Virus record (IMG/VR): IMGVR_UViG_3300032086_004532
Span: 1 to 64,000 of that record
Source of the DNA: a virus
Length of the DNA stretch: 64,000 nt
Reading direction: 5' to 3' (one strand)
Shown here: in pieces, positions 16,138 to 64,000 of the stretch
Numbering within the stretch: position 1 is the first letter of the stretch
How the letters are laid out: each line of letters begins with the position of its first letter
Made by a program: the position numbers and the translations under genes
The notes under the pieces: generated by a model
Database searches by the model: none
What the model saw: only the letters and a program-made list of their open reading frames with translations
What the model was told of the DNA's origin: nothing

Positions 16138-16160
16138 ACACCAAACGGAGGTTAGTGCAA

Positions 16161-17971: not shown

Positions 17972-17980
17972 GAGGTTCGA

Positions 17981-19424: not shown

Positions 19425-19689
19425 TGTAGACATCGACATCGTGCGCGTTGAGATCACTCCAGCAACTGCCGAGATCAAAGTGACCTACTTCGTACGCCTT
19501 GAAAACAAGGTGTACGAAGGGATCATCGGAGGGGGAGAAACCCAGTTCTCGAATGAGACACTGGGCCCCCAGATCTTGGAACTCGTAGAGAAGATGCAGG
19601 CCCAGATCAAGATCGATCTGGGTCTTGCGTCCGAAGATGCTCAACCCATTGACTCCCTAACAACCACACGAGACGAGATTGAACTGTAA
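19402..19689 (+). CDS. Hypothetical small protein upstream of helicase
   Basis: A 95-residue protein using the ATG at 19402, which has a GAGG about 6 bases upstream and overlaps the preceding gene in another frame. It has two beta strands (VRVEITPA, IKVTYFVRLE), a glycine loop and a C-terminal helix (LELVEKMQAQIKIDLGL). The strand pattern is loosely similar to its upstream neighbour, so a duplicated small fold is possible. Its stop shares a base with the DnaB-like helicase start, and function is unknown. Confidence 0.6.
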   Translation: MRSSHASDVDIDIVRVEITPATAEIKVTYFVRLENKVYEGIIGGGETQFSNETLGPQILELVEKMQAQIKIDLGLASEDAQPIDSLTTTRDEIEL

Positions 19690-23153: not shown

Positions 23154-23160
23154 ATGAACT

Positions 23161-23188
23161 GAGGGGCGGCCCTTCGGGGCTGCCCCTC
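23161..23188 (+). other. UUCG-tetraloop hairpin between operon genes
   Basis: GAGGGGCGGCCC and GGGCTGCCCCTC pair around a TTCG loop, giving a 12-bp stem with one G-T wobble. There is no T-run after it, so it probably is not a strong terminator. It could be a processing or mRNA-stability element that raises expression of the upstream zinc-ribbon gene over the polymerase gene. Confidence 0.75.
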
Positions 23189-23204
23189 CTATGCGGAGAT
23201 TGTT

Positions 23205-25610: not shown

Positions 25611-25909
25611 ATCAAGCAGAGATGGAGAAGGAAGTCGCGAGGCGCACTGGGCTGCCATTACCCGCAGTACGCCTCGTGATTTCCTCATTAAAAGAGGTGA
25701 TGTCGGAGAGTCTTCGGAGACAGCAAGATGTTGTCTTCCGGGGCCTGTTCCGCATCACCTGCGTTTCGCGGGACATGACGACCTTCCGCACAGCGCAAGG
25801 ATCAGACGAGCCAGAGAGGTATACGAGTAGTAAGTTGATCATGGGCATCCGCCCTGTTCGTGCCTTTCGAAAGGAGCTCAACAAATGGACAAGTACGCAG
25901 TCGTCGTAG
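25607..25909 (+). CDS. HU/IHF-like DNA-binding protein
   Basis: A 100-residue protein starting at GTG in a GTGA overlap with the polymerase. The first half (KEVARRTGLPLPAVRLVISSLKEVMSES) matches the HU two-helix dimerisation part; a strand pair around VVFRGLFRITCVSRD and a C-terminal IRPVRAFRKELNKW helix follow, in HU order. The DNA-clasping arm is shortened and lacks the usual Pro-rich tip. It probably bends or compacts phage DNA in replication. The assignment is by pattern with moderate assurance. Confidence 0.7.
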   Translation: MNQAEMEKEVARRTGLPLPAVRLVISSLKEVMSESLRRQQDVVFRGLFRITCVSRDMTTFRTAQGSDEPERYTSSKLIMGIRPVRAFRKELNKWTSTQSS

Positions 25910-26067
25910 ATGAGTCTCACGCCAAGACCGCAGCAGCGAAGGGTTCCTGCCCTTCATGCGGGTCGGGGCGTGTCAACACAACGGGGCTTACGCCCCACTG
26001 CCCCAACTGTGGCACACAGCCTTGGGAGAAAAATGCCAAGAGGAAAGAAGCCCGCAGCCGCTGGTAA
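25885..26067 (+). CDS. Small zinc-ribbon protein
   Basis: A 60-residue protein with one zinc ribbon, CPSCGSGRVN followed by CPNCG, flanked by a short N-terminal strand and a basic C-terminus. AGGAG lies about 8 bases before the ATG. It overlaps the HU-like gene by 25 bases and the RecA gene by 35. Small ribbons like this may modulate neighbouring enzymes; no function is assigned. Confidence 0.7.
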   Translation: MDKYAVVVDESHAKTAAAKGSCPSCGSGRVNTTGLTPHCPNCGTQPWEKNAKRKEARSRW

Positions 26068-27184
26068 AGGCGCTGCTGGAGTCATCAACAAGCTGAAGAG
26101 CAAGTACCCTGGCCGGGTGTTTACGGCCGGGGAGTACACGATGCCCTGGATGATCAAGAGACTTCCGACTGGGATTCTCGATCTGGACATCGCACTGGGA
26201 GGAGGTCTGCCCGCTGGAGGCATGACCTTCCTGACGGGAAAGCAGGGCGTGGGCAAGAACTGGCTTGCCAATCAGGTGATTCGCAATCATCAGGAGCGCC
26301 ACGGAGATGCAACGAATGTCGCAGTAGTCTCTACTGAGATGGTCTACGACAAGGAGTTCGCACAGCTTTGCGGCGTGCGGATTGCAATGTCGGACTCAGA
26401 GATTGAGGCCCTGCGGCAGATCTACGAAGATGAGGGCGAAGAGTTCACCGATGAGTACGAAGCTCAGCTTCGATCTCAGATTGGGGAGTTCGTTACTGTC
26501 CCTCCCTCGATCGCAGAAGAGTCCCTTCAGATCGCAATCGACTTGATCGCCAGCCGAGAGTTCGATCTGGTCTTGATTGACTCCTTCGGCTCTCTGCTGA
26601 CGGAGCACGATGACGAGTCCGAGCTTGGGGATTCCGCACGAGTGGGTGGAGCAGCGATGCTCAATACTCGGTTTGCGCGAAAGCTGAACACTGCGCTCGG
26701 ACCAGACAAGGACGGCAACCCCAACCTGACCTGTGTGATCGGCATCAACCAGGTGCGTGACAACACGGACAGAGCCAACAAGTACAGTCCAAAGACGATT
26801 GAGGCGGGTGGCTGGGCTCTGAAGCACGCCCGATGGGTGACGATTCAGATGTCTCCGCAGGCAAAGGTCAAGAACGGCAAGATCCCTATCGGAAAGACTG
26901 TACGGTGGGAGATCACCAAGCAGAAAGCCGGCGGGCATGAAGGAGCCTCTGGCACCTATGACTTCCTGTTCAGCCATACTGGGATTGACCACCCAGCTCA
27001 CACGGTCTCTGTCGCCGCGGATTACGATGTGCTCACCCGTAAGGGAGCCTGGTACTTCTACGGTGACGATCAGATTGGGCAGGGCGCATCAAACGCTGCC
27101 GAGTTTGTGATTGAGAACGGCCTGCTCGAGAAGATCGAAGCAGACACGCTCCGTGCAGCGGGTGTTCGCTGCCGGTACGGGTGA
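26033..27184 (+). CDS. recA: RecA-family recombinase
   Basis: About 383 residues from the ATG at 26033, with GGGAG just upstream; a longer in-frame start at 25910 lacks support. The Walker A region is GKQGVGKN at 69-76, Walker B is LVLIDSFGS, and VIGINQVRDNTDR resembles the strand leading to loop L2. TGILDLDIALGGGLPAGGMT is the classical RecA entry segment. The usual Thr/Ser after the Walker lysine is Asn (K75-N76). It forms the strand-exchange filament for recombination-dependent replication and repair, with nuclease and resolvase genes immediately downstream. A UvsX-type phage recombinase is an equally fair name. Confidence 0.9.
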   Translation: MPRGKKPAAAGKGAAGVINKLKSKYPGRVFTAGEYTMPWMIKRLPTGILDLDIALGGGLPAGGMTFLTGKQGVGKNWLANQVIRNHQERHGDATNVAVVSTEMVYDKEFAQLCGVRIAMSDSEIEALRQIYEDEGEEFTDEYEAQLRSQIGEFVTVPPSIAEESLQIAIDLIASREFDLVLIDSFGSLLTEHDDESELGDSARVGGAAMLNTRFARKLNTALGPDKDGNPNLTCVIGINQVRDNTDRANKYSPKTIEAGGWALKHARWVTIQMSPQAKVKNGKIPIGKTVRWEITKQKAGGHEGASGTYDFLFSHTGIDHPAHTVSVAADYDVLTRKGAWYFYGDDQIGQGASNAAEFVIENGLLEKIEADTLRAAGVRCRYG

Positions 27185-27657
27185 GCAAGAGACCAACCTG
27201 CCCGGTCTGTAAGGGTATCAATCTCTCGTCATGGTCAATGGGGAAGGTCCGCTGCAAAACCTGCGGCAGGGCCTTCCCCAAGCATGAGATCATGTCCGAA
27301 GAGTATGTGCCGAAGAAGCCGAGAAAGGGCAGGAGTACGCGCAAGCAGGCAGACAAGCAAGAGCGGCGCGTCGCGAAACAAGTGGGCGGTAGGCAGACCA
27401 TCGCCTCTGGGCAGACTCCGGTGGATAAAGCAGACGTGCGGTCAGATACTGTCCGCGTCGAATGTAAATACACCGATAAGAAGTCATACTCTCTAAAGGC
27501 AGCGGACTTAGCGAAAGTGGCATCACAGGCCACCGGGGACCAAATGCCGCTGTTCTATGTCGAGTTCAGGGAAGAAGGAGAGGCATACTACGTGGTCCCC
27601 GAACACTGGTTCTTACAGCTATTGGAGCTCTACGAGAATGATCAGAACGATTGCTGA
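27181..27657 (+). CDS. Resolvase-like PD-(D/E)XK endonuclease with zinc ribbon
   Basis: A 158-residue protein from a GTG overlapping the RecA stop. An N-terminal zinc ribbon (CPVCKG, then CKTCGR) and a basic linker are followed by a small nuclease-like core: KADVRSDTVRVECKYT contains the D and E-x-K of the PD-(D/E)XK fold, and SYSLKAADLAKVASQA resembles the helix after it in Hjc-like and phage resolvase-type nucleases. It likely cuts branched DNA produced by recombination, but a general nicking enzyme is also possible. It sits between RecA and the Cas4-like nuclease. Confidence 0.7.
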   Translation: MSKRPTCPVCKGINLSSWSMGKVRCKTCGRAFPKHEIMSEEYVPKKPRKGRSTRKQADKQERRVAKQVGGRQTIASGQTPVDKADVRSDTVRVECKYTDKKSYSLKAADLAKVASQATGDQMPLFYVEFREEGEAYYVVPEHWFLQLLELYENDQNDC

Positions 27658-28447
27658 CCTCGAGGGTCTGACCCCCGAGGAGATTGAAGAAGCGAGAAGT
27701 CGAGTAAACCTTCGCGGCCTGTACTACCTGGGCGTGAAGAGAAATGGGCAGCAAGAGGGACTGACCCTTGATGAATACGAGCAGTGGCGGGAGCAGGAGC
27801 CCGACCTCAAGTGTGCCCCTTGCCGCGGTACAGGTCTGACCAAGACCTACCACCGTAGCGTCGGCACCATTCACGCAAGTTCTGCCCATACCTGCGTGCG
27901 TCGCCTGTACTACGATGTAGACGGGTCATACCGTCCGAAGCAGTACATCAAGCCAGAGCTGCAGATCACATTCGCGATGGGTCACGCCATTCACGATGTG
28001 GTCCAGAAGGCGCTGCATACGGCGCTGCCCGGCAAGTTCCAAGATGAGGTCAAGGTAGACCTTGATGAGGCCATGGTGCTGGGCAGCAGCACAGACGGCG
28101 TTGTTGAGCTTGATCATGCGCGGGTGCTTTTGGAAATCAAGAGCATTGGCAGCGAGTTCGACAAACTCACCAAGCCCAAGCGCGAGCACCTTACACAGGC
28201 GGCAGGCATCTACGCAACCGCAATGGATACGCCGTTCATCAGCTTCTTGTATGTGAGCAAGAAGTGGCCGCACGATGTGAAGGAGTTCGTCGTTACCTAC
28301 GATGAGAAGTACTACCGTCGCTGGTGGAAGAGCAAGGGCTCCGTCGTAGAGGAAGCGCTGGACAAGGGAGAACCGCCGATTGCGGACGGGACGAAGGATG
28401 ACTGCGGGTTCTGTCCGTATGCGTACTTCTGCCCGCAAAAGCAGTAG
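27638..28447 (+). CDS. Cas4/RecB-like exonuclease with iron-sulfur cysteines
   Basis: About 269 residues from the ATG at 27638, with GGAG 10 bases before it; an earlier in-frame ATG at 27557 would overlap deeply with the upstream gene. The PD-(D/E)XK core includes FAMGHAIHDVVQ, STDGVVELD and LLEIKS (E166, K168). Cluster cysteines fit the Cas4/AddB layout: C86 in TCVRRLYY and the C-terminal C-x2-C-x5-C of CGFCPYAYFC. An extra CAPC knuckle lies near residue 65. These proteins resect DNA ends to feed the recombinase. No CRISPR array is present, so this is a recombination nuclease rather than an adaptation protein. Confidence 0.87.
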   Translation: MIRTIADLEGLTPEEIEEARSRVNLRGLYYLGVKRNGQQEGLTLDEYEQWREQEPDLKCAPCRGTGLTKTYHRSVGTIHASSAHTCVRRLYYDVDGSYRPKQYIKPELQITFAMGHAIHDVVQKALHTALPGKFQDEVKVDLDEAMVLGSSTDGVVELDHARVLLEIKSIGSEFDKLTKPKREHLTQAAGIYATAMDTPFISFLYVSKKWPHDVKEFVVTYDEKYYRRWWKSKGSVVEEALDKGEPPIADGTKDDCGFCPYAYFCPQKQ

Positions 28448-28455
28448 GAGGGGAC

Positions 28456-29004
28456 ATGGCAAGAGGGAAGAAGACTGACTTCACTGTCAGCCTGCAAGAG
28501 GGCGAAGACATGTACTCTGGTGCCGCAGAGCGGGCACTGGAGCGTGTCGCAGACTTGGGGCTTGATGTCCCAGCGCGCCCGATCGACAACAACGGCAATC
28601 TTTTCGATGGCCGAATCCCGCCGAATGTGTCGGACTTCACAACTCGAGAGCTGGCTGACCTGTACACGATGATGTGCGGGTATGCCGACTATCTCGAGAA
28701 CCTCTGCACGGTAGCGCGCGCAGATGTGCTGAACTCCGACAAGAAGCTGAAGATGACGAAGGCTCTTGTTCGCAAGAGCAAGACTGGTACTGCACAGGAC
28801 AAGGAAGACCTCTGCATCTCCGATGTTCGCTACATCGAGGCAGACATTTCCTATGTCGAGGCGAAGACCTACCTCGAACTACTCGAGGGCTTGAACAAAG
28901 CTGCTTCTCGGGACCGGTCAGTGCTGTCGCGCCTGATCGAGACCAAGAAGATGGAGCTGGACAACAAGCGCCGAGATCGAAATGCCCGAAACTACCGCTC
29001 TTAG
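28456..29004 (+). CDS. Hypothetical helical protein in recombination cluster
   Basis: A 182-residue protein with a strong AGGAGGGG site. It is Lys/Arg-rich at both ends and mainly helical. A long charged helix covers about residues 60-170, including TRELADLYTMMCGYADYLENL and a region alternating acidic and basic residues, and the C-terminus is basic. I do not recognise the family. It lies between the Cas4-like nuclease and RusA and overlaps RusA by 23 bases, so an accessory recombination role is plausible. Confidence 0.65.
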   Translation: MARGKKTDFTVSLQEGEDMYSGAAERALERVADLGLDVPARPIDNNGNLFDGRIPPNVSDFTTRELADLYTMMCGYADYLENLCTVARADVLNSDKKLKMTKALVRKSKTGTAQDKEDLCISDVRYIEADISYVEAKTYLELLEGLNKAASRDRSVLSRLIETKKMELDNKRRDRNARNYRS

Positions 29005-29455
29005 TCTTTGGGTGCCGTTCCTTCCTCCGTCGGAGAACCGCATTCGAGTTCACCGGCGGCAGGGAGGGCAGGTCTACAGCAAGGAAGCCAGAGACTTCAA
29101 AACGCAGTTCTCGGACTATATGCGAGAGAACTACTTCATTCAGATCAACCAGTTTGTTGCGGAGCATACCGAGCAGTCCATCTACTCGGTAACGATGGTC
29201 TTCACTATGGAGACGCTCATCAACAAAGGGTGGGCTAAAAAGAAGGCGAAAACGCTCTATAAGAAAGTAGACGTCGGCAACCGGCGTAAGCTCATAGAAG
29301 ACTGTCTTTCTACTGCCTTTGGCGAGATCGACGATTCACTCTTCTTTGAGCTTCATCTAAGGAAGGAGATGGGTCCTGAACAAGGTGTTGAGATCCTTGT
29401 TGAGAGGGTCGCTCCAGAGCTGTTTGGAGTCCCCCATGTCACACGAGCTGAATAA
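28982..29455 (+). CDS. rusA: RusA-family Holliday junction resolvase
   Basis: A 157-residue protein with the RusA layout: an N-terminal LPPSENRIRVHRRQGG strand-turn, YSKEARDFK, and the metal site in KKVDVGNRRKLIEDCLSTAFGEIDDSLFF, which supplies the D-x-x-N-x-x-K and D-x(8)-DD pattern of the family. It cuts four-way junctions symmetrically. Its length is slightly above the usual 120-140. It overlaps its upstream neighbour and the following small gene, and works logically after RecA and the Cas4-like nuclease. Confidence 0.85.
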   Translation: MPETTALSLWVPFLPPSENRIRVHRRQGGQVYSKEARDFKTQFSDYMRENYFIQINQFVAEHTEQSIYSVTMVFTMETLINKGWAKKKAKTLYKKVDVGNRRKLIEDCLSTAFGEIDDSLFFELHLRKEMGPEQGVEILVERVAPELFGVPHVTRAE

Positions 29456-29729
29456 GACAGAGCTGATCGAACTCCTTCGGGAGGAAGACCACGGCAATGT
29501 CAGTAGAGCAAACAAGCGAGACTCGCTTGAGGCGGCATTGGATAGCGATGTCGACCTGGAGGAGTGCCCGCTTGAAGAAAGACGCGCTTCGATGCAGCGA
29601 CACATCAAGCGCAACTGGAGAAGGATTCGGACTCAGCTGCCCCGGTGCAACGGCAAATGCGAGACCTTCGGGTGTCCAGATGCCATCGTCATCGGCTGCT
29701 GGTTCCGATTCAAGGACGAAATCCTATGA
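29436..29729 (+). CDS. Small protein with C-terminal cysteine cluster
   Basis: A 97-residue protein from the ATG at 29436 (GGAG about 7 bases upstream), overlapping RusA by 20 bases. The N-terminal half is a helix-turn-helix-like or SAP-like segment (LNKTELIELLREEDHGNVSRANKRDSLEAALDS). The C-terminal half carries four cysteines in CNGKCETFGCPDAIVIGC, fitting a metal knot. Its stop overlaps the next ATG. The SAP-like reading would suggest nucleic-acid binding; that is inference from a weak pattern. Confidence 0.6.
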   Translation: MSHELNKTELIELLREEDHGNVSRANKRDSLEAALDSDVDLEECPLEERRASMQRHIKRNWRRIRTQLPRCNGKCETFGCPDAIVIGCWFRFKDEIL

Positions 29730-30622
29730 CTTGGGAGCCCTGCGTCACCTGCGCGAGGCTCCGCAAGTGCAATGAGGTGGATCACAACCTCCTCCTTGAG
29801 GGAGGGGGTTGTTCCCTTCACGAGGTCGTTCACGAAGGCGTTGTGTGCGCCCGCCTTCGAATCATGGACGAGTTTGGCGCTCAGGCAATACCCACAAAAA
29901 GTAACCTAAAGAAAGGGGTTATCGTTATGGCTGGAAAAGTTTCCAAGACCGCAGCAAACAAGCGCACTCTCCGCGCACTCGGCAAGGCGCTCGGGGTCAT
30001 CCCCCGTGGCGGCGCAAGCTTCAAGCTCTCTGCCGAAGAGATCTGCCAGATGATCATGGATACCGGCGACGAGCGGTTCGCCAACCTCGATCAGATGAGC
30101 GACGACGAAGTATCCTCGATCGATGTTGACTCTACATCCGCCCCTGCTCCGAAGAAGGAAGAGCCCGCTGAGGAGTCTGCTGAGGAAACGGCAGGGGAAG
30201 AAGCTGCAGAGGAAGTCGAGGAAGAGAAGCCCGCGCCCAAGAAGCGCACCCGCCGTGCGCGCAAGCCGAAGGTAGAGGAGCCCGTAGAAGAGGAGTCGGA
30301 TGATTCCGACGAGGACACCTCTGACGAGGACAGCGCACCGTCGAAGCGCAAGCCCGCTGCACGCCGTGGTCGCCGTCCCAGCCGCAAGGCACCGGCCAAG
30401 TCTGAGTCGGCAGGGTCTGTCGATCTCAGCAAGCTGGAAGAGATGGTCAAGGTCATTGGCGAGGCAGGCGACGATCGCGACAAGAAGATCAAGGCCCTCG
30501 GCAAGATGCTTGAGGCTCTGGTCGAGAAGATCGACGCGATCGACGGCTTCCTGACCTATGAGTACAACCAGGACGCCGAGGGAAACGAGATCGGCAGCCT
30601 CACGGAAGTGGACTGGACCTGA
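29726..30622 (+). CDS. Cysteine-cluster domain in frame with an acidic/basic low-complexity protein
   Basis: A single open frame of 298 residues. Residues 1-55 form a small Cys/His module (CVTCARLRKC, GGCSLHEVVHEGVVC). After a short linker comes an ATG at 29927 with GAAAGGGG 8 bases before it, so a second product of about 231 residues could start there. The long part has a helical head, then a low-complexity stretch of Glu/Ala and Lys/Arg blocks (about residues 135-230 of the long form), then a helix-rich C-terminus (SVDLSKLEEMVKVIGEAG). It may be one fused gene or two genes whose intervening stop was lost. The charged stretches recall nucleoid-like or histone-like tails; function is unknown. 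Confidence 0.6.
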   Translation: MTWEPCVTCARLRKCNEVDHNLLLEGGGCSLHEVVHEGVVCARLRIMDEFGAQAIPTKSNLKKGVIVMAGKVSKTAANKRTLRALGKALGVIPRGGASFKLSAEEICQMIMDTGDERFANLDQMSDDEVSSIDVDSTSAPAPKKEEPAEESAEETAGEEAAEEVEEEKPAPKKRTRRARKPKVEEPVEEESDDSDEDTSDEDSAPSKRKPAARRGRRPSRKAPAKSESAGSVDLSKLEEMVKVIGEAGDDRDKKIKALGKMLEALVEKIDAIDGFLTYEYNQDAEGNEIGSLTEVDWT

Positions 30623-30789: not shown

Positions 30790-33700
30790 CTACCAACCGC
30801 CGTCAGACAGTCGGTCGGTGATCCATGAGAGCTTCGCCCCGCGGAACTTGACGACAGGAGTGGCAATTTCTGAGTCAGACCGGTCACAGAGCTCAAAGAG
30901 TTTTGAAAAGAGAGCCTGAGACCTAAACTCGTTTCGGAACTGCTGGTAGGACTCGCTTGCTCCCGATGGCGTAACTACCGTAGTGAAGGCAATTGGGCCA
31001 TCAGCGGTAGTGTTGATGGTAGCGTCAAGCGCAGTCTTGACTGCCGCCATCCATCGGGGGGCCATGTAGAGCTCAGATCCCAGCTTACTGGCTGCACTGT
31101 AAAGCGCCCTGCCAATTGACCACCCATTAGAGTTGTCAATAGAGGACCAGATTCCGCCGTGCGGGATAGAACCGGGCCATGACCCTGTTTTGTCAATCTG
31201 CGACTGGTCTGACGTGAGAGAAAACGCCGTCCCGAACAAGACCACGGACCTATTATCGGATCTCTTGTTTCTTCTGCGAATCAGGTGGCCAGAAAACGAT
31301 GTAGCAGAATGAACCATGCTGCCGTTCAATACTGCCGCGTTACTCGCGCCGTCTGCCGCAGAGTCTGCCAAGGGACGTGCTGCGAGACGGAACTCCCCGT
31401 ACTCCCCCACAGCAGTCGGCTTGATACCAGGAAAGGCCTCTGTCCAAGAGTAAGCCGCAGTGCGCTTTGCATCTTCGGTTTCTCCTGGAGCCCACCCAGG
31501 AATGAAACACTGAGATCCTTCTTTCCGCCTACAGCCAATGTAGAACTCTACTGTCGCAAAATACGTGTAGCGTCTACGGTCGCAGAACCTCTTGTTTAGA
31601 GCCCCAGCGGTCATGTCAATCACGACAGGGAACTGCTTCTCGACGTCCCCCGTCCCTACTGATTCAGAGGACAGGTCCAACTCCTGTTCGTGCAAGAGTT
31701 CAGAGAATCCGAGCAAAGAGGTCTCATCTGTAGCAGCCGTGCCCCGGCTGTACAGATGCTGGGGCTGATTTTCGTCTCCGGAGATGTTGTACCTCCAAAG
31801 TCGAACTGTGACGCCCTCCCGGGCACGCCACGCGGAAAGATCCGACCAATCGGTAAACGCAGAGGTTTTTGTCGGAGAGCTTCTCCAGACCCCAAAAGTC
31901 CTGTACTGGGTGTAGCCAAGCGTCCCGCCGGGAACAGTCCTTCCGTCCGCAGGCACAAAGCCCAAGTTGATCTGGAGCTTGGACAGCATTGCGCCGTGGG
32001 GTGGGGACAGGGGAACCACGAAGCCGGTTTTTCCGGGCATTTGCCAGAAATCCGGATTTACACGGTCATCACCAGTTCGGTACGAACCAGTCGAGTCAAG
32101 AATATCGGATGGGTCAATGTGGTTTTTGGAAAACTCCCATTTTTCAGCATCTGAATCCGAGTCCTCTGGCTGATCGGCCCCATAGGACGTCAGGCCAAGA
32201 ATGTCCTGATCGTCGCTCGTCATCTTTCTTCCAGCACCGAAGTAGCAATACTGGAAGTAGAAAAGCGGGTCGTAGTACGGGTGGTACGCGTTGATCGTCG
32301 CGGCGTTAGAGCCCACCTTGAAGAACGAAGATCCTTCGTAGTAGGGGCGGTAATACCGCACTACGGTCAGTACGTGCGACACATACGCCTCAATTCCGCC
32401 CGTAGTGTTGGAAGTTACGATCTCTCCCGAAGAGTTCTCAGGCTTGGTGTTCTGCGGCCCTTCCCACAAAATCAAGGGAGTGGCGTAGCTCGGATACCGC
32501 CATCTGCGGATATTCGACGAGTAGGATCGACCTCGAACATCGGCGCGGACATATGCCCCGTATCCGGTGTAGACCCTCAGTTCCCTACTCACCGCCGGGT
32601 AGGATGCATAGTGCGTCACGTAGTTATTATCATCGGAATATGAAACAAGCCAGAATGCCCCATTACTCGTGTTCGTGACATTACCGAGCGAGTACTCAGT
32701 CAGCAGCGGGCCCTTATGGGCATCGCCATAGGGCGTAAAGGTGAGTGAAGTGGTTTGTTCGGAAGCTAGGCGATGCCCTGGATGAGTAACCTCGCCAGTT
32801 GGGGCCTTTTGTGGATCACTCAGCTCAAAGATAGGGAGCACTCCCGTATCGGCGCCCTCTTGAACACCGGTAGAGTCGGTAGGCCCGTAAACAAACTGCT
32901 CTGTTGCCAGCACAGAATCATCGAACCACCGCTCTCCCAAAGTCAGGTTTGAGCTATTCGTATCGTTTTCCGCCAGCGGCAAGTCTTCGTTCTGCAGCTG
33001 CTTGACTTCCGCTGGACCTACGACTTGATGCCCCAAGATCGGAGTATGGGTGCGAAGGCCGGCGGCGCGAAGGACGCCCTGAAGCTTCAGATTGCCCTTG
33101 AACAAGCCCTCTTCAAGAGCCTGGACTCGGAAACTGCGGATGTAGTAGACGCCGTACTCTGTCAGCCCAAAGAAATGTGGACCGAGAGCACCTGATAGTG
33201 ACGGATACGATCCCGGCGGGAGAGTCATGTCGAGACGAACAGCAAACGAGTTAGGATCTCGAGTGTCCGTGAAGCTCTGGTCTGGGTTCCATTGAAGGAA
33301 ATCTACCGTGTACCGATTGAGCGTGGTCCCTCGTGATACGGTGACTCGGTGTGTGTTGCCAATGATCGTCTCAGTTGCTGGATCTCCCACATTGTCCACG
33401 AGGGCTACGGTAATATCCCGCTCATCTACAGACCCGTAGTAAACCGCGTCAAACACGATTCTAAACGCCGTGTTGTTGGCGATCAGATCTGACAGGCCCT
33501 TGAAGTACAGCTGTACTCTGCCTGCCTCCGTGCTCAACTTGTAGACTACGATCTTAGTGCCGGAACCCTTGAAAATATCTCCGGGCAGACCCTCGTTTGG
33601 AGCAATCCTGGCTCTGGTAGTAGACCCAGAAACAACCCGAGCAAACACCTCATGCTTGTGAGAGGTGTAATCCAAGAAGGTATCTTCTCCGCTGCTCAGG

Positions 33701-36700
33701 CCAGACTCGTATAGATCTCCTGAGACAAACGGCAGGTTTGAGGCCCCTGGAATTCGGGTACGAACCCCATCAAGGGCACTCTCAACAGCCTGCCAGACCG
33801 TATAGTCTCTGGCATCGAGGCTACCGAGACTTTCGCTCTCGAAGAAAAGCTGCCCAGCATGTCCCCCAAGAGATCTCTCGGAGAACAAGTCTCCAAAGAA
33901 GTTTCCGAGGGCACCTCGAGCAGACTGCCCGTGCTGCGCAGTGATCAGTGGGCGCAAGCTGCCGGCCCCAACCTCTTCTTCAATAGAGGATGAAACGGGC
34001 CCATATTGGGTTCCGTAGCCCATGCTCGCACTGACAGACGAGGTCTGGGTGGTTGCCCCGGGCTCTGCATCGAAGGCAATGATGCCCGTGCCGATCTCTG
34101 AGTAGTCTGCAAGGTCTAGGTACGAGTAATGCCACCTACGACCATACGCGCGCAGAGAGTATGTGCTGTCCGGGGGAACAGAAGTTGAATCCTGCTTTTT
34201 GAGGGCAAAGACAATGTCCCCGGCAAGTTCCCGTACTGCTACAACGGTGCCCGCGTAGGTACCGCCATCAAGCTCGATACCAAGATGCACCAGCTCGCTC
34301 AGAGAGCGGCTTGAGATTCCCTCTGGGATGTCAGCTTGGGCGACCACCACGGTGTAGTCATAGGACAGATTGAATAGGCGCGTGGCGGTGGGAGATGCTG
34401 ACGCAGCAGGAGCAGCTGTAGTCTGAACGCTCGAAACTTCCGCGACCAGGTAGGGGCTTCCAAGCCAAGCGGCACCATCTCCCCAGAATACCGGAGGAGG
34501 ATTTGAGAGGTCGGTGTACCCCGGACGGAGTTCGTTGAAGGTGCCGGAACCTCCGGTGTAGATACCAGAGGATTCGTGCCTCGGAGAAAAGAGACTGCCC
34601 CGAAGGGTCATCCCTTCTCCCGCCCCTACATGGGTGGCCTCCCACTCCTCCACTACGAGAGTGGCCGGATACAGGTCTTCAGACTGCAGCCCCGTAGAAA
34701 AAGTCTTCTTTCTCCAGAAAACTCCGGCGGGGTCATGGCCCTCTTGCTCTGACCGAACCCCTGCCGCTCCCCAGTTTCCTCCGATGCTCCGGTCGGACTC
34801 TGTAAATCTCAGATCGTGTGTAGAAGTATCAGAGATGACATGCACACCGCTCTGCCCACGCCCAGCAGAGGTAGAGGCAGACGGGGATCCAGTAACTCGG
34901 ATCAATGCACCGTACGCGGGAGCATAAGAAGTCACCTGAATCGCCGGCCCAACACTGACATCGTGCATACTGGCAGTGGTGTTCAGGGCACTAAATCTCG
35001 AGTCATTTGCGGTAACCAAAAGGCCCGCGCCAAGACCCGACCATCCCGCACGGATTCCATACCCGTAGGGAGCTACGGGGGATCCCGGAACCAACGGTCC
35101 CATTTCCTGATGTACGCTGAGAGCCGCGCGAGCCTCTACCACTGTGCCGAAAATCGGAACGCCTACCCCTACGCGAAGCGTGTAGAAGGCAAAGGTCACC
35201 GCAGTAGGAGTAGTGACGCTAAGTGGTGAGCCGTCGAGTCCTCGCAAAGTACAAGTACTGGGGCCAAGCTGGTACAGCTCGTACATACCCGCGTACTCAG
35301 TGGATGTGACCTTTACGAAGGTCTTCCCACCATGGATGTTTGCGGAGCGAAGAGATGTACTTGCGTGCGTGACCGGGTAGATTCCACGAAGATCATCTAC
35401 ATCAAGTAGCGCACCCCCTGCAGAGATAGCAGAAATCGCGCTTCCGCTAAGAGTGCCTTCCAGCTCAGCCAGGTTCGAGTTTGAACCAGTAGTGCTGATG
35501 TACGCAGCCTTCGTCACATGCTCGAAGTGCGCGAAGGACAGGTCGCTACCAGATGTCCCGTCGTTGACCTTTGTGTGATGGAACCCACCAGCGAGGGCAG
35601 ACTCGGTCACCGAGCTGATTGCAGCTTGGAAGTCGGGGAGGAAGTCGTCGTACAGCGTCCATGCGGAAACACTCGATCCTGAATCGAGAAGATCGACGCT
35701 AATCTGGTGTGGAGGCGGAACCAGCTCGACTGTGCGCGCATCCAACAGTCGGTGGACACGCCAGTCCACATACTCATCGGTGCCGATGGTGAGGTCGATT
35801 GAGCGCCCTACATCTGCGAGGGTGAACTCATCACCATCGCGAACTTGAAGCAGGTTTCCGGCCAAGATCTCGTCTGCAGAAGTGGAACCAGAGCGAACTG
35901 CCGAGCGGCTGTTTGTGGACTCCTGCATGTGCAGCGTGATGGGACGGCCATCTACTGTGGCGTGGAAGCCGCCACCCTTGTCGTTGCCCTGCCCCTGGTA
36001 CACGCCATCGAAGTTGAGCTTTTGGTGCAGGTTCTTGAGAACCCAAGCATCCACTTCTTCTGCCGAGTTCACCGCAGGAACAAGCAGGAAGTCCCGGGGA
36101 ACCTCGCCAAACTCATTCTTCATGCCGAGGACGATCTTGATGCCGCCGGCAGGCATACGGGGCAGTCGGGGCTCAAAGCCGAGGTAGAGATTGTTCTCGA
36201 ATACCCCGTTGGCTTTTACAATCAGAGAGCCGCCAGCATCGTTGTTCAGCAGGTGCAGATTGTTTTCATCAATCGGGCGAACAACAATCTCGGTCTCAGA
36301 GACCACCACATCAACGATGTAGTCGCCGTTGTGGTTGATTGGTGTCGAGTAGGACGAGCTGGAGATGGTGACGATGTCTCCGGGCTCTACGAGATTTGTC
36401 TCGAACGTAGCGGAGGAGCACTTGATCGTCGCCCCGTCGATGATCTCGGTGATCGTTACCGAGGTCTGCTTCGTCGCGTCTGTTGCAGGAGTCTGCGAAA
36501 GCACACTCCTGTACGTATCGAACACAGTGTCGTTACTGATTGGGAGGAGACTTGCGCCAGTGTTGTCGAATACAGACGACGCACCCGGGCCTGTAGGCGC
36601 GTACGCAACGGTTCCGACTCCCACGACCCGGCTACCGGGAACTGTGTCGTCCCAGTGCAGAATCTCATTCCAGTCGCTATCGAGGACTGCGAAGTACTTT

Positions 36701-37509
36701 GAGATGTCCGCAAGGCTGGCATCGTGCGGGAGATCGACGAAAATGTCTGTGGCCAAGATACCAGAAAGGCCATCCGAAACGCTGGCTCTAAGATCGATGC
36801 CCTTGATTTCCCCAGTGACTCCATCAATATCCAGTCGAGGGCTTCCCGCGGGGATATCAAGCACAACCGGGACCGCTACACCACGGACCATCTTCACCTG
36901 GTGGTTGTCCAAGTTCTTCGACAGGCTGTGAAGTGCGCGGTTGAAATTCTCGCTGGTCCGATCTTCTCCTCGCGCAACGAAGCTCGAGCTCGGGCGGTTG
37001 CCCTGCGTCATGGCGCGAGGTGAAGAGGATGCCAGGTCTCCGGCTGTGACCGTAGCGGCTGGATGCGGGTGGACCGCAAACCCCAACAAAGGGGCCAGAT
37101 CGTTGAAACCGCTCGTCTCCGGAAGAACGCGAATTAGGGCCGGAGTAGTTCCTCCCACATATCCAGATTGCGTTGACCGAATCGCCAGTACGCCTTCTTC
37201 TGCCGTCGCCTCTACAGGCACGGGGCTAAAAGAGGATGCCCTCAAATTGATCGCATCTACAATCTCTTGCAGGGTCAGAGACCCCACACCGGAGAACTGG
37301 ACATCGATCAGGTTCACCGATTCCGTGCTGAGGGCCAGTTCAAATGATGCGCTACCGCCGCCAATTACGGCGTTGACGGTATCAAATTCGCCATCAAGGT
37401 TGATGTGCTCAGTCCCGAAAATCACGGGCTGAGAAATGACGGCGTTGTCGGTCTGGCTCGCCAGGAAGGGCCGGCGGGTGTAGTCACTCACAGAAACCTC
37501 ACTTCCCAA
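30790..37509 (-). CDS. Giant beta-rich tail or fibre protein (2239 residues)
   Basis: The last and second-largest gene of the tail block. It is Ser/Thr/Gly/Val-rich with short strands throughout, few cysteines and no signal peptide, as in phage fibre and baseplate-rim proteins. The N-terminal part (about 1-170) includes a LTLQEIVDAINLRASSF segment like those in bacterial and phage adhesin linker domains. Around residues 370-450 there is a LVEPGDIVTIS - NGDYIVDVVVSETEIVVRP module that also occurs in neighbouring giant proteins. The last 900 residues are aromatic-rich, with many Tyr/Trp, and could be the receptor-facing part. The start overlaps the 216-residue gene upstream. A host-recognition role is inference from size, composition and position. 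Confidence 0.75.
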   Translation of the reverse strand: MGSEVSVSDYTRRPFLASQTDNAVISQPVIFGTEHINLDGEFDTVNAVIGGGSASFELALSTESVNLIDVQFSGVGSLTLQEIVDAINLRASSFSPVPVEATAEEGVLAIRSTQSGYVGGTTPALIRVLPETSGFNDLAPLLGFAVHPHPAATVTAGDLASSSPRAMTQGNRPSSSFVARGEDRTSENFNRALHSLSKNLDNHQVKMVRGVAVPVVLDIPAGSPRLDIDGVTGEIKGIDLRASVSDGLSGILATDIFVDLPHDASLADISKYFAVLDSDWNEILHWDDTVPGSRVVGVGTVAYAPTGPGASSVFDNTGASLLPISNDTVFDTYRSVLSQTPATDATKQTSVTITEIIDGATIKCSSATFETNLVEPGDIVTISSSSYSTPINHNGDYIVDVVVSETEIVVRPIDENNLHLLNNDAGGSLIVKANGVFENNLYLGFEPRLPRMPAGGIKIVLGMKNEFGEVPRDFLLVPAVNSAEEVDAWVLKNLHQKLNFDGVYQGQGNDKGGGFHATVDGRPITLHMQESTNSRSAVRSGSTSADEILAGNLLQVRDGDEFTLADVGRSIDLTIGTDEYVDWRVHRLLDARTVELVPPPHQISVDLLDSGSSVSAWTLYDDFLPDFQAAISSVTESALAGGFHHTKVNDGTSGSDLSFAHFEHVTKAAYISTTGSNSNLAELEGTLSGSAISAISAGGALLDVDDLRGIYPVTHASTSLRSANIHGGKTFVKVTSTEYAGMYELYQLGPSTCTLRGLDGSPLSVTTPTAVTFAFYTLRVGVGVPIFGTVVEARAALSVHQEMGPLVPGSPVAPYGYGIRAGWSGLGAGLLVTANDSRFSALNTTASMHDVSVGPAIQVTSYAPAYGALIRVTGSPSASTSAGRGQSGVHVISDTSTHDLRFTESDRSIGGNWGAAGVRSEQEGHDPAGVFWRKKTFSTGLQSEDLYPATLVVEEWEATHVGAGEGMTLRGSLFSPRHESSGIYTGGSGTFNELRPGYTDLSNPPPVFWGDGAAWLGSPYLVAEVSSVQTTAAPAASASPTATRLFNLSYDYTVVVAQADIPEGISSRSLSELVHLGIELDGGTYAGTVVAVRELAGDIVFALKKQDSTSVPPDSTYSLRAYGRRWHYSYLDLADYSEIGTGIIAFDAEPGATTQTSSVSASMGYGTQYGPVSSSIEEEVGAGSLRPLITAQHGQSARGALGNFFGDLFSERSLGGHAGQLFFESESLGSLDARDYTVWQAVESALDGVRTRIPGASNLPFVSGDLYESGLSSGEDTFLDYTSHKHEVFARVVSGSTTRARIAPNEGLPGDIFKGSGTKIVVYKLSTEAGRVQLYFKGLSDLIANNTAFRIVFDAVYYGSVDERDITVALVDNVGDPATETIIGNTHRVTVSRGTTLNRYTVDFLQWNPDQSFTDTRDPNSFAVRLDMTLPPGSYPSLSGALGPHFFGLTEYGVYYIRSFRVQALEEGLFKGNLKLQGVLRAAGLRTHTPILGHQVVGPAEVKQLQNEDLPLAENDTNSSNLTLGERWFDDSVLATEQFVYGPTDSTGVQEGADTGVLPIFELSDPQKAPTGEVTHPGHRLASEQTTSLTFTPYGDAHKGPLLTEYSLGNVTNTSNGAFWLVSYSDDNNYVTHYASYPAVSRELRVYTGYGAYVRADVRGRSYSSNIRRWRYPSYATPLILWEGPQNTKPENSSGEIVTSNTTGGIEAYVSHVLTVVRYYRPYYEGSSFFKVGSNAATINAYHPYYDPLFYFQYCYFGAGRKMTSDDQDILGLTSYGADQPEDSDSDAEKWEFSKNHIDPSDILDSTGSYRTGDDRVNPDFWQMPGKTGFVVPLSPPHGAMLSKLQINLGFVPADGRTVPGGTLGYTQYRTFGVWRSSPTKTSAFTDWSDLSAWRAREGVTVRLWRYNISGDENQPQHLYSRGTAATDETSLLGFSELLHEQELDLSSESVGTGDVEKQFPVVIDMTAGALNKRFCDRRRYTYFATVEFYIGCRRKEGSQCFIPGWAPGETEDAKRTAAYSWTEAFPGIKPTAVGEYGEFRLAARPLADSAADGASNAAVLNGSMVHSATSFSGHLIRRRNKRSDNRSVVLFGTAFSLTSDQSQIDKTGSWPGSIPHGGIWSSIDNSNGWSIGRALYSAASKLGSELYMAPRWMAAVKTALDATINTTADGPIAFTTVVTPSGASESYQQFRNEFRSQALFSKLFELCDRSDSEIATPVVKFRGAKLSWITDRLSDGGW

Positions 37510-59713: not shown

Positions 59714-59926
59714 TTAGACTTTTCTGATTTGATTTTTCAGAGTCTGGTATGTGTTGAAGAACCGGCACTCAGGCGTACTGGGCCAGGTTGACTCCATGCT
59801 GTCCAGATCGGAATCTGAGATCTCGAATACCCAGGATACTCTACGTCCTGATCGCTTTACGGATGCAATCCGGTATCCGTTTGCCACCAGGTATGCGGCA
59901 AAGCTCATGTCTTGTGTTTCGTACAT
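59714..59926 (-). CDS. Small DUF5659-like protein
   Basis: A 70-residue protein whose FAAYLVANGYRIASVKRSG, the following VSWVFEISDSD and the C-terminal FFNTYQTLKNQI fit the pattern I know as DUF5659, short phage proteins of unknown function. Its start overlaps the previous gene's stop. It has an alpha-beta topology suitable for a small dimer. Role unknown. Confidence 0.65.
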   Translation of the reverse strand: MYETQDMSFAAYLVANGYRIASVKRSGRRVSWVFEISDSDLDSMESTWPSTPECRFFNTYQTLKNQIRKV

Positions 59927-60162
59927 TACGTCAAGGCCGCGGACAGCAGGGGCAGGAACTCGGCAGCAAAGGCCTCGGAGTGCAGTCTTCCCAATTCTAT
60001 CGTACGGCGTTGGAGTTGTCGAGTGCCGGTCCTGCCCTCAAGCACTACCAGTAGCAGCTCTTTTTCTCGCAAAAGACGGGCTTCTTCTTTGCGCAAGAGG
60101 GCATCGACCTGCGCTCCCAAAGACGCGACCATAGAGGCATACGGGCCTGCTGCTTCAGCCAT
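59926..60162 (-). CDS. Small helical protein downstream of sigma
   Basis: A 78-residue, mostly helical protein with a Glu/Lys/Leu-rich central helix (VDALLRKEEARLLREKELLLVVLEG) of the sort that forms a coiled coil, and an Ala-rich C-terminus. It overlaps the sigma-like gene stop at its start and shares a base with the next gene. It could be a small partner of the transcription factor or a structural peptide; only the helix is visible. Confidence 0.6.
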   Translation of the reverse strand: MAEAAGPYASMVASLGAQVDALLRKEEARLLREKELLLVVLEGRTGTRQLQRRTIELGRLHSEAFAAEFLPLLSAALT

Positions 60163-60992
60163 CAGAACGCATCCATGTAGTCTTTGTACTTTTTGGCAAT
60201 CCGGTTTTTGACCTGAGAAACCTTCGACGGGCTCCAGCCAAGATTCTTTGCGATCTGACCCATGTTCTCGGTCTTTGGCTTCCCATTCTTGCCAAACAGA
60301 TATTCGAAGACTGCCTGCTCCTCCAGGGTCAGGTCATAGGGCAGCATTTCGACGATTTCTCGGTGAACTGAGGAAGTCTCCTCAAATGGATTCACATCGA
60401 ATCCGCCCTCACCGAGTGTAGGAATCGCAAAGATGTCGGGGCGCACCTCTTTTGCGAGCCGCTCGACCTTCTTGACGCTGATCTTCATTCGATCTGCGAT
60501 CTCAATGGAGGTCGGATCTCTATTGAGCTCTTCGCGCAGGATGTCTTTGGTGCGCTGATACTCGCCGATCTTGTTCGCCTGAGACTCCACGATTCTTGTG
60601 AAGTTCTGGTGCTTCTTCACATACCGGTTCAGGCCACGGAGGTTGTTCGTGACATGAGTGGAAATCACCGCGCCCTTGGCGGGGTCGTACTTGCGCAGAG
60701 CCTTCACAGTCAGTGACCGCGCCTCTGCCTCGACCGTGGGGCGGTACATGCGCGGAGGCGTATGTCGGTTGACCTGAGACGTGATGACCGGATTGAGCGC
60801 AGTCAAGAGGGGCTGCAGCTTCTCAGGGTCCTCATTGGAAGTCTTCCACTGGCGCCACAGATCGATCTCCTTGGCCGCCTTGCCCGTGTACGGGCGAAAC
60901 TTGCCAGTCTTGTAGTCCTTGGTCCCCCAGGTTTTCGGAAACTGGTAGGGGTCCTTGGCTGCAATTTTGAGGAGTCGATCCTTGACGGCCAT
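60162..60992 (-). CDS. Sigma-70-like RNA polymerase sigma factor
   Basis: A 276-residue protein with sigma regions 2 to 4 in order. Region 2 covers about residues 55-130 (LLTALNPVITSQVNRHT, ALRKYDPAKGAVISTHVTNNLR). A region 3-like helical part follows (IGEYQRTKDILREELNRDPTSIEIADRM). A C-terminal region 4 follows (LTLEEQAVFEYLFGKNG, then the helix-turn-helix MGQIAKNLGWSPSKVSQVKN with basic RIAKKYKDY). Region 1.1 is absent. Such factors direct RNA polymerase to promoters. It could serve the phage's own fused polymerase or recruit host polymerase, as T4 gp55 does. It lies inside the tail operon with no dedicated promoter seen. The sigma call is solid; its partner is inference. Confidence 0.87.
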   Translation of the reverse strand: MAVKDRLLKIAAKDPYQFPKTWGTKDYKTGKFRPYTGKAAKEIDLWRQWKTSNEDPEKLQPLLTALNPVITSQVNRHTPPRMYRPTVEAEARSLTVKALRKYDPAKGAVISTHVTNNLRGLNRYVKKHQNFTRIVESQANKIGEYQRTKDILREELNRDPTSIEIADRMKISVKKVERLAKEVRPDIFAIPTLGEGGFDVNPFEETSSVHREIVEMLPYDLTLEEQAVFEYLFGKNGKPKTENMGQIAKNLGWSPSKVSQVKNRIAKKYKDYMDAF

Positions 60993-60994
60993 GG

Positions 60995-61240
60995 CTACTT
61001 CTTCTGCGCGCGGTCCACGAGCTTGCCAGCCTCTCGAGCAGACATGCCCAGTCGGACATTGCGGCCGTAGTGCTCTTTGTTCGTGTAGAGGCTGCTGAGC
61101 TGCTTGTATGCACGCTCACCAAGAACATCCCGACTCTTGAACAGTTCATCGAGGAGCTGATTCGTGTGTCGAACATTGAGTTTTTCGGCACCCTCAGAGA
61201 GCTGGCCATCTACACTGCGCTGAAAGAGCTCGGACATCAC
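60995..61240 (-). CDS. Small basic helical protein upstream of sigma
   Basis: An 81-residue protein. Its helix-rich sequence (AEKLNVRHTNQLLDELFKSRD, ERAYKQLSSLYTNKEHYGRN) and basic C-terminus (REAGKLVDRAQKK) suggest a small DNA-contacting or scaffold protein. It starts with two Mets, and its start overlaps the stop of the 79-residue gene. It ends 3 bases before the sigma-like gene. No family known. Confidence 0.6.
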   Translation of the reverse strand: MMSELFQRSVDGQLSEGAEKLNVRHTNQLLDELFKSRDVLGERAYKQLSSLYTNKEHYGRNVRLGMSAREAGKLVDRAQKK

Positions 61241-61477: not shown

Positions 61478-64000
61478 TCAACCTCGTTTTCCGATTCCGG
61501 AGGCTCCGGACAGAGCGACGGAACCCTGGATTCGCCTCTTGTATAACTCTACACGATCGGCTCGTTCAAGTCTCGGATCCATCCTATCACCTTCTCCGCC
61601 ATTCAGGTTGAATGTGGGAGTTCCAGATGAAGTGAGGCTACTGGACAGATCTATGTCTTTTAGATCAAGGTACTCGAGCTTTCCACCATACTCCGCAGAC
61701 GAAGAGAAACATACGGCATTCGAGTGGTATCCACCGTAGTATTTTGGAGCGTCCCCGACAGGGGCCGGAGCAGCAGAGAATGACCTAGTCGTAGTGTCGT
61801 AGAAATAGGATTTCGAAGCCAAAACCTCGAGCTGATTTGCGATCGGCCTTCGAGTGAAGTCGTAGATGTAAGACAGCGTATCCTCAGTGATGCCGCCAGT
61901 TACTTGCGCTGCAGATTTCTTGGCGTATCGCAAAGCCACGACATCTACTGCCTCTTCGACGCTTCGCACGGAATATCTCGTATTGGTCACGAGGTCTGTG
62001 ATCGCCGCCGTCCCAAAAAACGGACCATAAATCTTCCCGGTAATGTTGTTTGCGCTGTAATCATCGGAGATCCAGATCGGCCGAATTGCCTCCTCTACCG
62101 GAAGCAGGGCCGATCTTCTTGATCTCTCTGAAATTACACCAACAAACCGATCTCCCGGAAGAACAGCTGGGATGACCAGGTCGTTGCCCACCATGTAGCC
62201 TACAAGGTCCATATAGTCGGCGAACTCAAACTCCATGCCCGGCTCGGGAAAGTACTTCTTGATCTGAATCTCAACATCGCCTACATCACCAAGAAGCGTA
62301 AAGAAGGCAGGACTCCTAAAGTCTTTTACGATGATCAAGACTTCTGAATTTCCGTTTTCCCACGTACCCGATGTGACGGTGCCACCCTGATATTCGACCT
62401 CTGGCAGGGTCAGCTCTTTCCGCGCTTCTTGGTCAACTGCTCGATCACCCAAGTCTCCTGTAAGTACCGATGCAGAGAGCGAGGGCTGAGGATCGGATGT
62501 AACTGTGAGCCCGTAAATCAGATCTGAGAATGACTGAAAGCCCAAGGTAGCCGCCACGGCGTACCAAAAAAAGGCTTGATCTCCCGTCGCAGTACTGGCG
62601 ATGTTTGAAGTAATTCCTCCGCCAATAGACAGGTCAGCATTTCCAGAGGCTTCTACTCTGGTAATAACTGCATCTTGAATTGTCAGGGTGCCGTCACTGC
62701 CAATCAGCTCAGAAAATATATCATCCGACTGGTCTCCAGTACGGTGTGAGCGCACCTGAGACAGACGCACCTGAGTCTGTGCTCCGCCCTGACTGATTGA
62801 GTGAGTGACAGACTGAACCATGCCTAGCTTGAATGATCTCGGAGAAGATGTAGGAGACGAAAGCGCATCCTCCATCGCAATCTCTGAAGATGTCATTGTC
62901 GAGTCGATGACCAGAGCGGGGAACCCGGGAATGATGTGGGGGCTGATGCTCAGGCTTAGGGATGCGGATCTAGCTGCGTATCGACTCGTAAGAAGACGAA
63001 AATGCGCAACCTTTGAGGCATAGGTACCGAAAGTTTCTCTATCTTCGACTGTAGATGCGTCGGTAACAGGATTCTTGAGGCCGAAGTAGATGGCGTCAGT
63101 CATGCGCTCGAACTTCGGGACGATGCCACTGAATTTCTCGTGGTCGAAGATCAGATTGGATGTGGCCCGCTCCCCCAGTGCGGAAGCAAGGCTGGCCCCA
63201 GTCAGCTCCGGCGCAAAGAAGTACCGGTTCAGGATCGCGCTATCTGATGTCGCAAACTCGAATCCCACATCGAGTTGAAGACGGGAAGCTTCCCGGATCA
63301 ATTCTCGGCTTGTAGAAAACGACTGGATCATGTCAGGGAAGATGACATTGCTCTTTGGCGGCGGACAAAACCACACGTCTGGACGAACGATGTGCGTGTA
63401 GAGGGCTTCCCGACTCCCAGATACGCCTGTGCCTATGATCTCTGAGGCCTTGGTGGTTGTGACGTTGTTCTTTCCGACACCAAAGTCTTTAATTTGGACA
63501 TGCACCGGGTCCCACCCTAGCCCCATGACTTCGACAAGCAGCGGGCACGTCGTGCCCCCAAAGAGCTTTTCTTTCCCCGCCCCGAGGTATGCGAGGTTGT
63601 GGGCTGCAGCCAACGTCTCTGCTTGTTGGTAGAAAAGGACATAGTCCTTGGCAATTTGAATGTCCAAGTCGAAGCGAGTCAGGCCGCCCGGGTACTTGTC
63701 GCCAGTCAGATGAAAGCGGACTTGGGTTTCAAAAGCTGCGAGATTGAGGGTAGAAGGATCTACGCGCGTAGTTGTCGCCAACGTGAAAAGGGCTCGGCGC
63801 AGGTTTTTGTACCAAGTACCGGTGGTGGTCGCGTCCTTAATGGGCGTGCCTGGCTTATGAAACTCATAGGGTAGGCCTACGCCCCACTTGGAGGGGTTTC
63901 CCTTTGACTCTGTGTCGTCCTTGTAGGAAAACACGAAGTCCATCGCAAGCCCCCACTCATGGGCGATTGCCTTGTCATCGGTGCCGGGCTCTCTAAACGC
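61478..64000 (-). CDS. Hub-like tail protein with M15 peptidase-like motif, 5' end outside window
   Basis: The frame is open to the right edge (840 codons plus stop visible), so the ATG at 63943 is probably internal. The first visible residues include AIAHEWGLAMDF, an H-x6-D with G and A in the places expected for the zinc site of VanY/M15 D-Ala peptidases; EFH further on might supply the third ligand. The next several hundred residues are a beta-rich tail protein: RFHLTGDKYPGGLTRFDLDIQ, many SISP/LSLS-type strands, and a C-terminal KYFPEPGMEFEFADYMDL segment. Together this suggests a baseplate or hub protein that could cut peptidoglycan during entry. The M15 reading rests on one motif and needs the missing start. 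Confidence 0.6.
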   Translation of the reverse strand, partial: AFREPGTDDKAIAHEWGLAMDFVFSYKDDTESKGNPSKWGVGLPYEFHKPGTPIKDATTTGTWYKNLRRALFTLATTTRVDPSTLNLAAFETQVRFHLTGDKYPGGLTRFDLDIQIAKDYVLFYQQAETLAAAHNLAYLGAGKEKLFGGTTCPLLVEVMGLGWDPVHVQIKDFGVGKNNVTTTKASEIIGTGVSGSREALYTHIVRPDVWFCPPPKSNVIFPDMIQSFSTSRELIREASRLQLDVGFEFATSDSAILNRYFFAPELTGASLASALGERATSNLIFDHEKFSGIVPKFERMTDAIYFGLKNPVTDASTVEDRETFGTYASKVAHFRLLTSRYAARSASLSLSISPHIIPGFPALVIDSTMTSSEIAMEDALSSPTSSPRSFKLGMVQSVTHSISQGGAQTQVRLSQVRSHRTGDQSDDIFSELIGSDGTLTIQDAVITRVEASGNADLSIGGGITSNIASTATGDQAFFWYAVAATLGFQSFSDLIYGLTVTSDPQPSLSASVLTGDLGDRAVDQEARKELTLPEVEYQGGTVTSGTWENGNSEVLIIVKDFRSPAFFTLLGDVGDVEIQIKKYFPEPGMEFEFADYMDLVGYMVGNDLVIPAVLPGDRFVGVISERSRRSALLPVEEAIRPIWISDDYSANNITGKIYGPFFGTAAITDLVTNTRYSVRSVEEAVDVVALRYAKKSAAQVTGGITEDTLSYIYDFTRRPIANQLEVLASKSYFYDTTTRSFSAAPAPVGDAPKYYGGYHSNAVCFSSSAEYGGKLEYLDLKDIDLSSSLTSSGTPTFNLNGGEGDRMDPRLERADRVELYKRRIQGSVALSGASGIGKRG

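Follow-up and report, generated by a model that had tools for sequence, protein, structure and literature searches.

A phage sigma70-family factor that may form a virion-borne holoenzyme with the phage's own fused RNA polymerase

Introduction

A phage that encodes an RNA polymerase as well as a sigma factor raises the question of whether the two act together, at which promoters and at what stage of infection. We analyzed this question for a 64,000-nucleotide stretch of DNA (the window) from a 78,495-bp linear IMG/VR record, in which an earlier note had described a sigma-70-like factor within the tail operon and had proposed that it could combine with a phage core enzyme into a phage holoenzyme. 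The reading that we consider probable, with some reserve, is that of a virion-borne phage holoenzyme which starts early transcription.

Results

A sigma70-family factor among structural genes

The sigma gene is an open reading frame with an ATG start on the minus strand of the window. The features of the gene, its product and its surroundings are as follows.

60162-60992, minus strand: sigma70-family factor of 276 aa, a relative of Gp10 of Salmonella phage Arash (profiles, matches to solved chains, AlphaFold2)
60597-60884, minus strand: sigma2 domain, residues 37-132, with melting aromatics and DLIxxGNxGL replaced (AlphaFold2, VIA-align, residue table)
60447-60587, minus strand: sigma3 domain, residues 136-182 (Pfam Sigma70_r3; helices 136-156, 162-169 and 173-182)
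60168-60371, minus strand: sigma4-like domain with a helix-turn-helix (HTH), residues 208-275 (helices 208-220, 223-233, 244-251 and 255-275; Pfam r4 below cut-off)
59926-60162, minus strand: small ORF immediately downstream of the sigma gene
60995-61240, minus strand: small ORF immediately upstream of the sigma gene; many relatives have a short ORF at the same position, compared by position only
61478-64000, minus strand: large structural ORF upstream of the sigma gene, running off the window end (weakly similar to the Arash virion protein gp8, E 4e-4)

The identification as a sigma-70-like factor was borne out by a Pfam Sigma70_r3 match above cut-off (residues 141-184, E 1.6e-10), by PHROG 351 'RNA polymerase sigma factor' (E 1.1e-14), by matches to solved SigA chains (E down to 3.4e-7) and, in a one-to-one comparison with E. 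coli sigma70, by an alignment spanning region 2.2-3 (E 5e-6). TIGR02479 matched at E 9.3e-11, which is under its subfamily cut-off, Sigma70_r4 gave a weak match (residues 221-268, E 0.0024, 17.8 bits vs a cut-off of 24.1), and the Pfam search reported no match for Sigma70_r2. The reading frame is intact in orthologues that are 71% and 66% identical to the window protein. One in-frame TGA was observed inside the sigma frame of three other relatives (G046, G045 and G050; L159, L160 and L162) and may represent a reassigned stop codon in those phages.

The AlphaFold2 single-chain model (25 sequences; mean pLDDT 78.7, pTM 0.50; linker 186-206 unreliable) contains predicted helices that fit sigma2 at residues 37-132, sigma3 at 136-182 and a sigma4 HTH at 244-251 and 255-275. 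This agrees with the regions 2, 3 and 4 and the HTH near residue 245 that had been noticed before, although the HTH is predicted by AlphaFold2 while Pfam r4 falls under its cut-off. When the sigma2 part of the model was superimposed on solved structures of this domain, 76-94 residues matched at 2.0-2.5 A, with Z about 10. The significant Sigma70_r3 match and, in the predicted model, the sigma2 helical fold thus place the protein in the sigma70 superfamily. Its assignment to the tail operon is a fair description, with Baseplate J encoded downstream and the Arash homologue located among virion protein genes.

The fused polymerase and its neighborhood

The phage core enzyme named in the earlier note proved to be real: a single chain of 2117 aa combines bacterial-type beta and beta' and matches Rpb2_6 (E 4.5e-64) and Rpb1_2 (E 3.7e-32) of Pfam.

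3930-10283, minus strand: fused beta-beta' RNA polymerase, 2117 aa (profile matches)
6060-6080, minus strand: catalytic NADFDGD, intact, residues 1402-1408 (alignment)
6522-6659, minus strand: beta' clamp helices, the usual sigma2 docking site, residues 1209-1254 (AlphaFold2, alignment to E. coli rpoC)
8019-8045, minus strand: beta flap helix, the usual sigma4 docking site, residues 747-755, low confidence (AlphaFold2)
11098-13152, minus strand: gene for the portal protein, which lies upstream of the polymerase gene in the window and in Arash alike (match to Gp204 of Arash at 31% identity, E 1e-94)

Arash has the same portal-polymerase order and carries the sigma relative Gp10 in its structural operon. 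It differs from the window in chain layout, as the polymerase of both Arash and Vibrio phage D69 consists of about 1525 + 606 aa with a late split in beta' (L008, L007). In G014 and G020, two further relatives, the split comes after about 1136 aa. Comparison of the ORFs that directly follow the window polymerase with the Arash helicase Gp217 and with Gp218 did not support homology. The minus strand of the window also encodes a 2239-aa ORF (30790-37509) with no Pfam or PHROG match.

Co-occurrence of sigma factor and polymerase

An initial scan with the sigma sequence yielded three close relatives and an alignment-based scan yielded 39 records. Together with the window record, Arash and D69, the 39 IMG/VR records form a set of 42, which includes near-duplicates (23 distinct sigma sequences among 36 new loci). 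As computed here, the polymerase was present in 21 of the 42, among them each of the 16 records that reach 120 kb, while the 21 records in which it was not found were all below 120 kb. The fused polymerase as a single query recovered no relatives among viral contigs; with an alignment of three as the query, a polymerase-only scan gave 298 relatives, 80 of which were kept for a sigma check. A sigma profile match was obtained in 22 of these 80 records (17/19 at 120 kb or more, 5/61 below). One of the 17, G070, has the canonical sigma only, hence the sigma type found in the window and in Arash particles occurs in 16/19. The 80 records were checked in two lots, 47 and then the other 33 with 13 repeats, and the 0/46 matches in the second lot are weak evidence of absence since that scan was run without a known positive. 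Neither sigma type was found in G051 (171 kb) and G055 (150 kb), which have the polymerase, and no sigma was found in Rhizobium phage Y65, for which beta' only was recorded; these cases and G070 count against the reading that we favor. A search of 50,697 phage records gave strong matches to the sigma (E 5e-16 or better) for Arash, D69, D148 and D181 only, all four of which were also polymerase matches.

A second, canonical sigma gene accompanies this type in many of the larger relatives (L184 38757-39794; similar genes in L190-L205). The annotation of D69, a phage with a polymerase of its own, includes a T4 Srd-like anti-sigma factor (L003 23371-23910), and genes for NAD salvage (nicotinamide phosphoribosyltransferase and adenylyltransferase) are present in Arash (L184 8855-12342) and D69 (L220 33059-34054, L221 10803-12617).

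T4, which is without a polymerase of its own, encodes gp55, a diverged sigma that works with the host core. By analogy, the window sigma could redirect the host core, with the presence of a phage polymerase being incidental. Most phage sigma factors do work with the host core, and in reviews polymerase and sigma are set as alternative, opposite strategies, with jumbo phages having a polymerase but no sigma or the reverse. The co-occurrence described above argues against this explanation, as do the particle and docking data given below.

The sigma relative in Arash particles

Arash particles have been analyzed by LC-MS (BMC Microbiol 2023, PMC10585845). The beta subunit Gp206 tops the virion table with 128 unique peptides and 3516 spectra, and beta' (Gp216) is represented by 40 unique peptides and 1210 spectra (PMC10585845). 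Gp10, the homologue of the window sigma, was detected with 24 unique peptides and 467 spectra at 100% coverage, while the second canonical sigma, Gp196, is absent from the table (PMC10585845). The authors explain the polymerase and sigma in the virion by early transcription or by carry-over from the lysate (PMC10585845).

We computed peptide density relative to gene length for 35 of the 116 rows of this table. Gp10 had the highest unique-peptide density of the 35 rows (10.3 per 100 aa), and enzymes that are probably carried over, for instance primase and ligase, reached 0.2-0.6. Spectra per residue were alike for Gp10 (2.0), Gp216 (2.0), Gp206 (2.31) and the helicase Gp217 (2.43). The gene for this DNA helicase adjoins that for beta' (L185 9862-11280), and with 38 unique peptides in the same rows it is as abundant as the polymerase in Arash particles; it may be a polymerase partner.

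The joint presence of sigma and polymerase in these particles speaks further against a sigma that serves the host core. Because the sigma of this relative sits in the particle together with the polymerase, phages of this type, by analogy with Arash, probably inject a ready-made transcription machine. Counting against packaging in the window's phage, the Arash sigma is only about 27% identical to the window sigma and the particle data come from Arash alone.

Divergence of the sigma factor and of its putative docking surfaces

In the sequence alignment, the sigma70 positions Y430, W433 and W434 are occupied by H, N and N in the window sigma, which therefore lacks the melting aromatics of region 2.3 that characterize primary (group 1) sigma factors. 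The second group 1 hallmark, the DLIxxGNxGL motif of region 2.1-2.2, is replaced across the relatives of the window sigma. Among 34 sequences of this type, D403 was changed to A in 27, Y430 to H in 29 and W433 to N in 23, while T440 to R and R448 to N were found in 34/34; overall, D403, G408, N409, Y430 and W433 are replaced in most of the 34. The 17 canonical second sigmas retain most of these five residues. G411, Y430 and W434 were unchanged in 17/17 and G408 in 15/17, and DLIxxGNxGL, the host-type binding motif, is mostly preserved. Use of the host core may thus persist in the relatives through the second sigma, which leaves some room for the host-core explanation.

The polymerase was modeled with AlphaFold2 over residues 560-1480 (55 sequences, mean pLDDT 86.9), and the model resembles bacterial beta and beta' with Z 23-30. 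Long helices at 1209-1229 and 1234-1254 occupy the clamp position, and a short flap helix (747-755) was predicted with low confidence. The E. coli beta' residues R275, R278, E295 and A302 are contacts of sigma2. The phage clamp helices keep their shape while these positions are mostly replaced, and the position of E. coli Q300 is Y in 51/57 rows. The sigma and the core are therefore both off the canonical pattern and the second sigma is not, which is consistent with this sigma being the partner of the phage core but does not prove it. With the canonical beta'-binding residues lost in sigma and the clamp helices changed to match, we consider a sigma that redirects the host core unlikely.

Sigma residue 120 is G or S in the lineage with CATAAG sites and K, Q or R in the lineages with TATAAG sites, and resembles sigma70 residue 437, a contact of base -12. 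It was set aside because the difference counts as no more than one evolutionary event and varies with gap placement (BLAST places the residue elsewhere).

The lack of the melting aromatics had been named in the earlier note as an observation that would refute its proposal. It holds at the level of sequence, but we do not regard it as decisive because ECF sigma factors are also without most of these residues. The same loss, together with a sigma4 that is poorly conserved and under the Pfam cut-off, would suit a sigma-derived relic that does not initiate transcription and is packaged as an assembly or storage factor that prevents polymerase activity inside the particle. Conservation of the region 2.3-3.0 core over the 34 sequences and the existence of phage-specific promoters, described below, which need a reader, both argue against such a relic, which we consider highly improbable.

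Two classes of phage promoters

Two promoter classes were found in these phages: TGkTATAAG (class I) before non-structural genes and CTAAAATA (class II) mostly before structural genes. Counting k-mers de novo upstream of Arash genes gave GGTATAAG 8 times vs 0.2 expected and, with improved start calls, TGGTATAAG and CTAAAATA; counting in D69 gave TGTTATAAG and CTAAAATATA. For TGkTATAAG, 18 sites were located in the Arash genome and 16 in that of D69. Every one lies on the minus strand, which carries the non-structural genes, and for 12/18 and 12/16 of them, respectively, a called start is no more than 120 bp away. CTAAAATA has 5 sites in Arash (4 on the plus strand) and 10 in D69 (7 on the plus strand). 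Some class I sites have a CAATAA-like element at offset 21-22, with a spacer of 15-16 bp, in Arash (4/22), D69 (5/23), G009 (5/5), G010 (7/14) and G014 (1/5); it was not found at this offset in G059 (0/5), G077 (0/5) or the window lineage (0/15 sites).

The window lineage, which is GC-richer, has a kCATAAG version of class I. CATAAG was located upstream of genes in 4/10 cases in G001, 6/8 in G002 and 4/6 in G040, with p-values (9e-4, 1e-6 and 2e-4) that are nominal, the patterns having been picked after k-mer counts. Enrichment on the opposite strand was nearly equal (6 vs 4 in G002, 4 vs 3 in G001 and 4 vs 3 in G040), so CATAAG marks an intergenic position more than a direction, and the overlap of a stop codon with a Shine-Dalgarno sequence (TAAGGAG) may explain some of these sites. 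Class I enrichment was weak in G014 and G059 and was not found in three 20-kb stretches of G077; three 20-kb stretches apiece were also covered for G040, G059, G009, G014 and G010. The window contains a single class I site, ahead of the replication operon. This, the opposite-strand counts, the missing CAATAA element in the window lineage and the result for G077 count against our reading.

16120-16128, plus strand: TGTCATAAG, the core of a class I promoter, 41 bases ahead of the called start (motif; homologous site in G001, the record of L004, at about 37004)
16155-30622, plus strand: replication operon with helicase, UDG, DnaB-type helicase, primase, DNA polymerase A and RecA

The G001 site shares the sequence surrounding the window site.

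A phage holoenzyme might also use other promoters, with class I being read by the second sigma or by host sigma70 and the sigma studied here being late or confined to the particle. Apart from its final G, class I looks like an extended -10 site (TGnTATAAT), and the sigma gene lies among late structural genes, both of which agree with this possibility. Against it, the final G is strongly preferred over T in Arash, where GTATAAG was found upstream of genes in 21/40 cases (expected 2.3) and GTATAAT in 4/6 (expected 0.3). Moreover, the window lineage has class I-like sites, while neither a second sigma nor class II sites were found in its records, which are incomplete. A factor that is made late and then packaged would also be expected to serve best when the following infection begins. 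We regard such a division of labor as distinctly unlikely.

Discussion

The proposal of a phage holoenzyme is supported indirectly, by the co-occurrence of sigma and polymerase, the Arash particle, the phage promoters and the changed docking surfaces, while the loss of the melting aromatics weighs against it. In the virion-borne holoenzyme that we favor, the sigma would act as the subunit through which the phage RNA polymerase recognizes promoters. It would be produced late, by expression of the structural operon, and packaged together with the fused beta-beta' enzyme. Both would enter the host as a holoenzyme, with sigma2 docked on the diverged clamp helices and sigma4 on the flap. This enzyme would read class I (TGkTATAAG, with CAATAA 15-16 bp upstream in several relatives, and kCATAAG in the window lineage) and thereby start the early and replication genes. 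The second canonical sigma, where present, would be made in the infected cell only and probably serves class II (CTAAAATA) before structural genes.

That a large and widespread lineage packages and injects a complete holoenzyme and runs a two-sigma, two-promoter program from early to late with little or no need for host RNA polymerase is a wider claim, to which we give somewhat less than even credence. If true, polymerase and sigma in one particle would constitute a self-contained bacterial-type transcription system outside cells. Arash and D69, with their concrete promoters, are tractable for testing sigma-core co-evolution, and the same system bears on whether deeply branching phage polymerases began with a sigma.

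Our search of the open-licence literature found no papers that treat such a polymerase and a sigma70-family factor as a holoenzyme or that describe these promoters. Class II is similar to the T4 late-type TATAAATA promoter. The virion RNA polymerases of N4 and phiKZ are packaged and injected for early genes, and we know of no sequence-recognizable sigma70-family factor in their particles.

The Arash paper lists the sigma among virion proteins without holoenzyme or promoter analysis, the word 'promoter' occurring 0 times (PMC10585845). The mReC group comprises Caudovirales with a deeply branching multi-subunit RNAP, for which IMG/VR was among the sources, and the paper mentions sigma 0 times (PMC7481178). 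In a comparison by profiles alone, the window appears similar to mReC in that beta and beta' are recognized by bacterial or cellular profiles on a tailed-phage contig.

The non-virion RNA polymerases (nvRNAP) of AR9 and phiKZ also combine a phage core with a sigma-derived promoter subunit. AR9 gp226, which is required for initiation, and phiKZ gp68 are now seen as homologues of sigma that have diverged (PMC9209446, PMC12809450). This softens the contrast that the earlier note drew with phiKZ-like enzymes. The AR9 and phiKZ subunits are without detectable sigma sequence similarity, whereas that of the window sigma is detectable, which keeps it out of their class. Their cores consist of four chains, are non-virion and use other promoters, while the window core is one chain. 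The system described here is set apart by a sigma that is recognizable from its sequence, a one-chain core of bacterial type and the presence of both in the particle of a relative.
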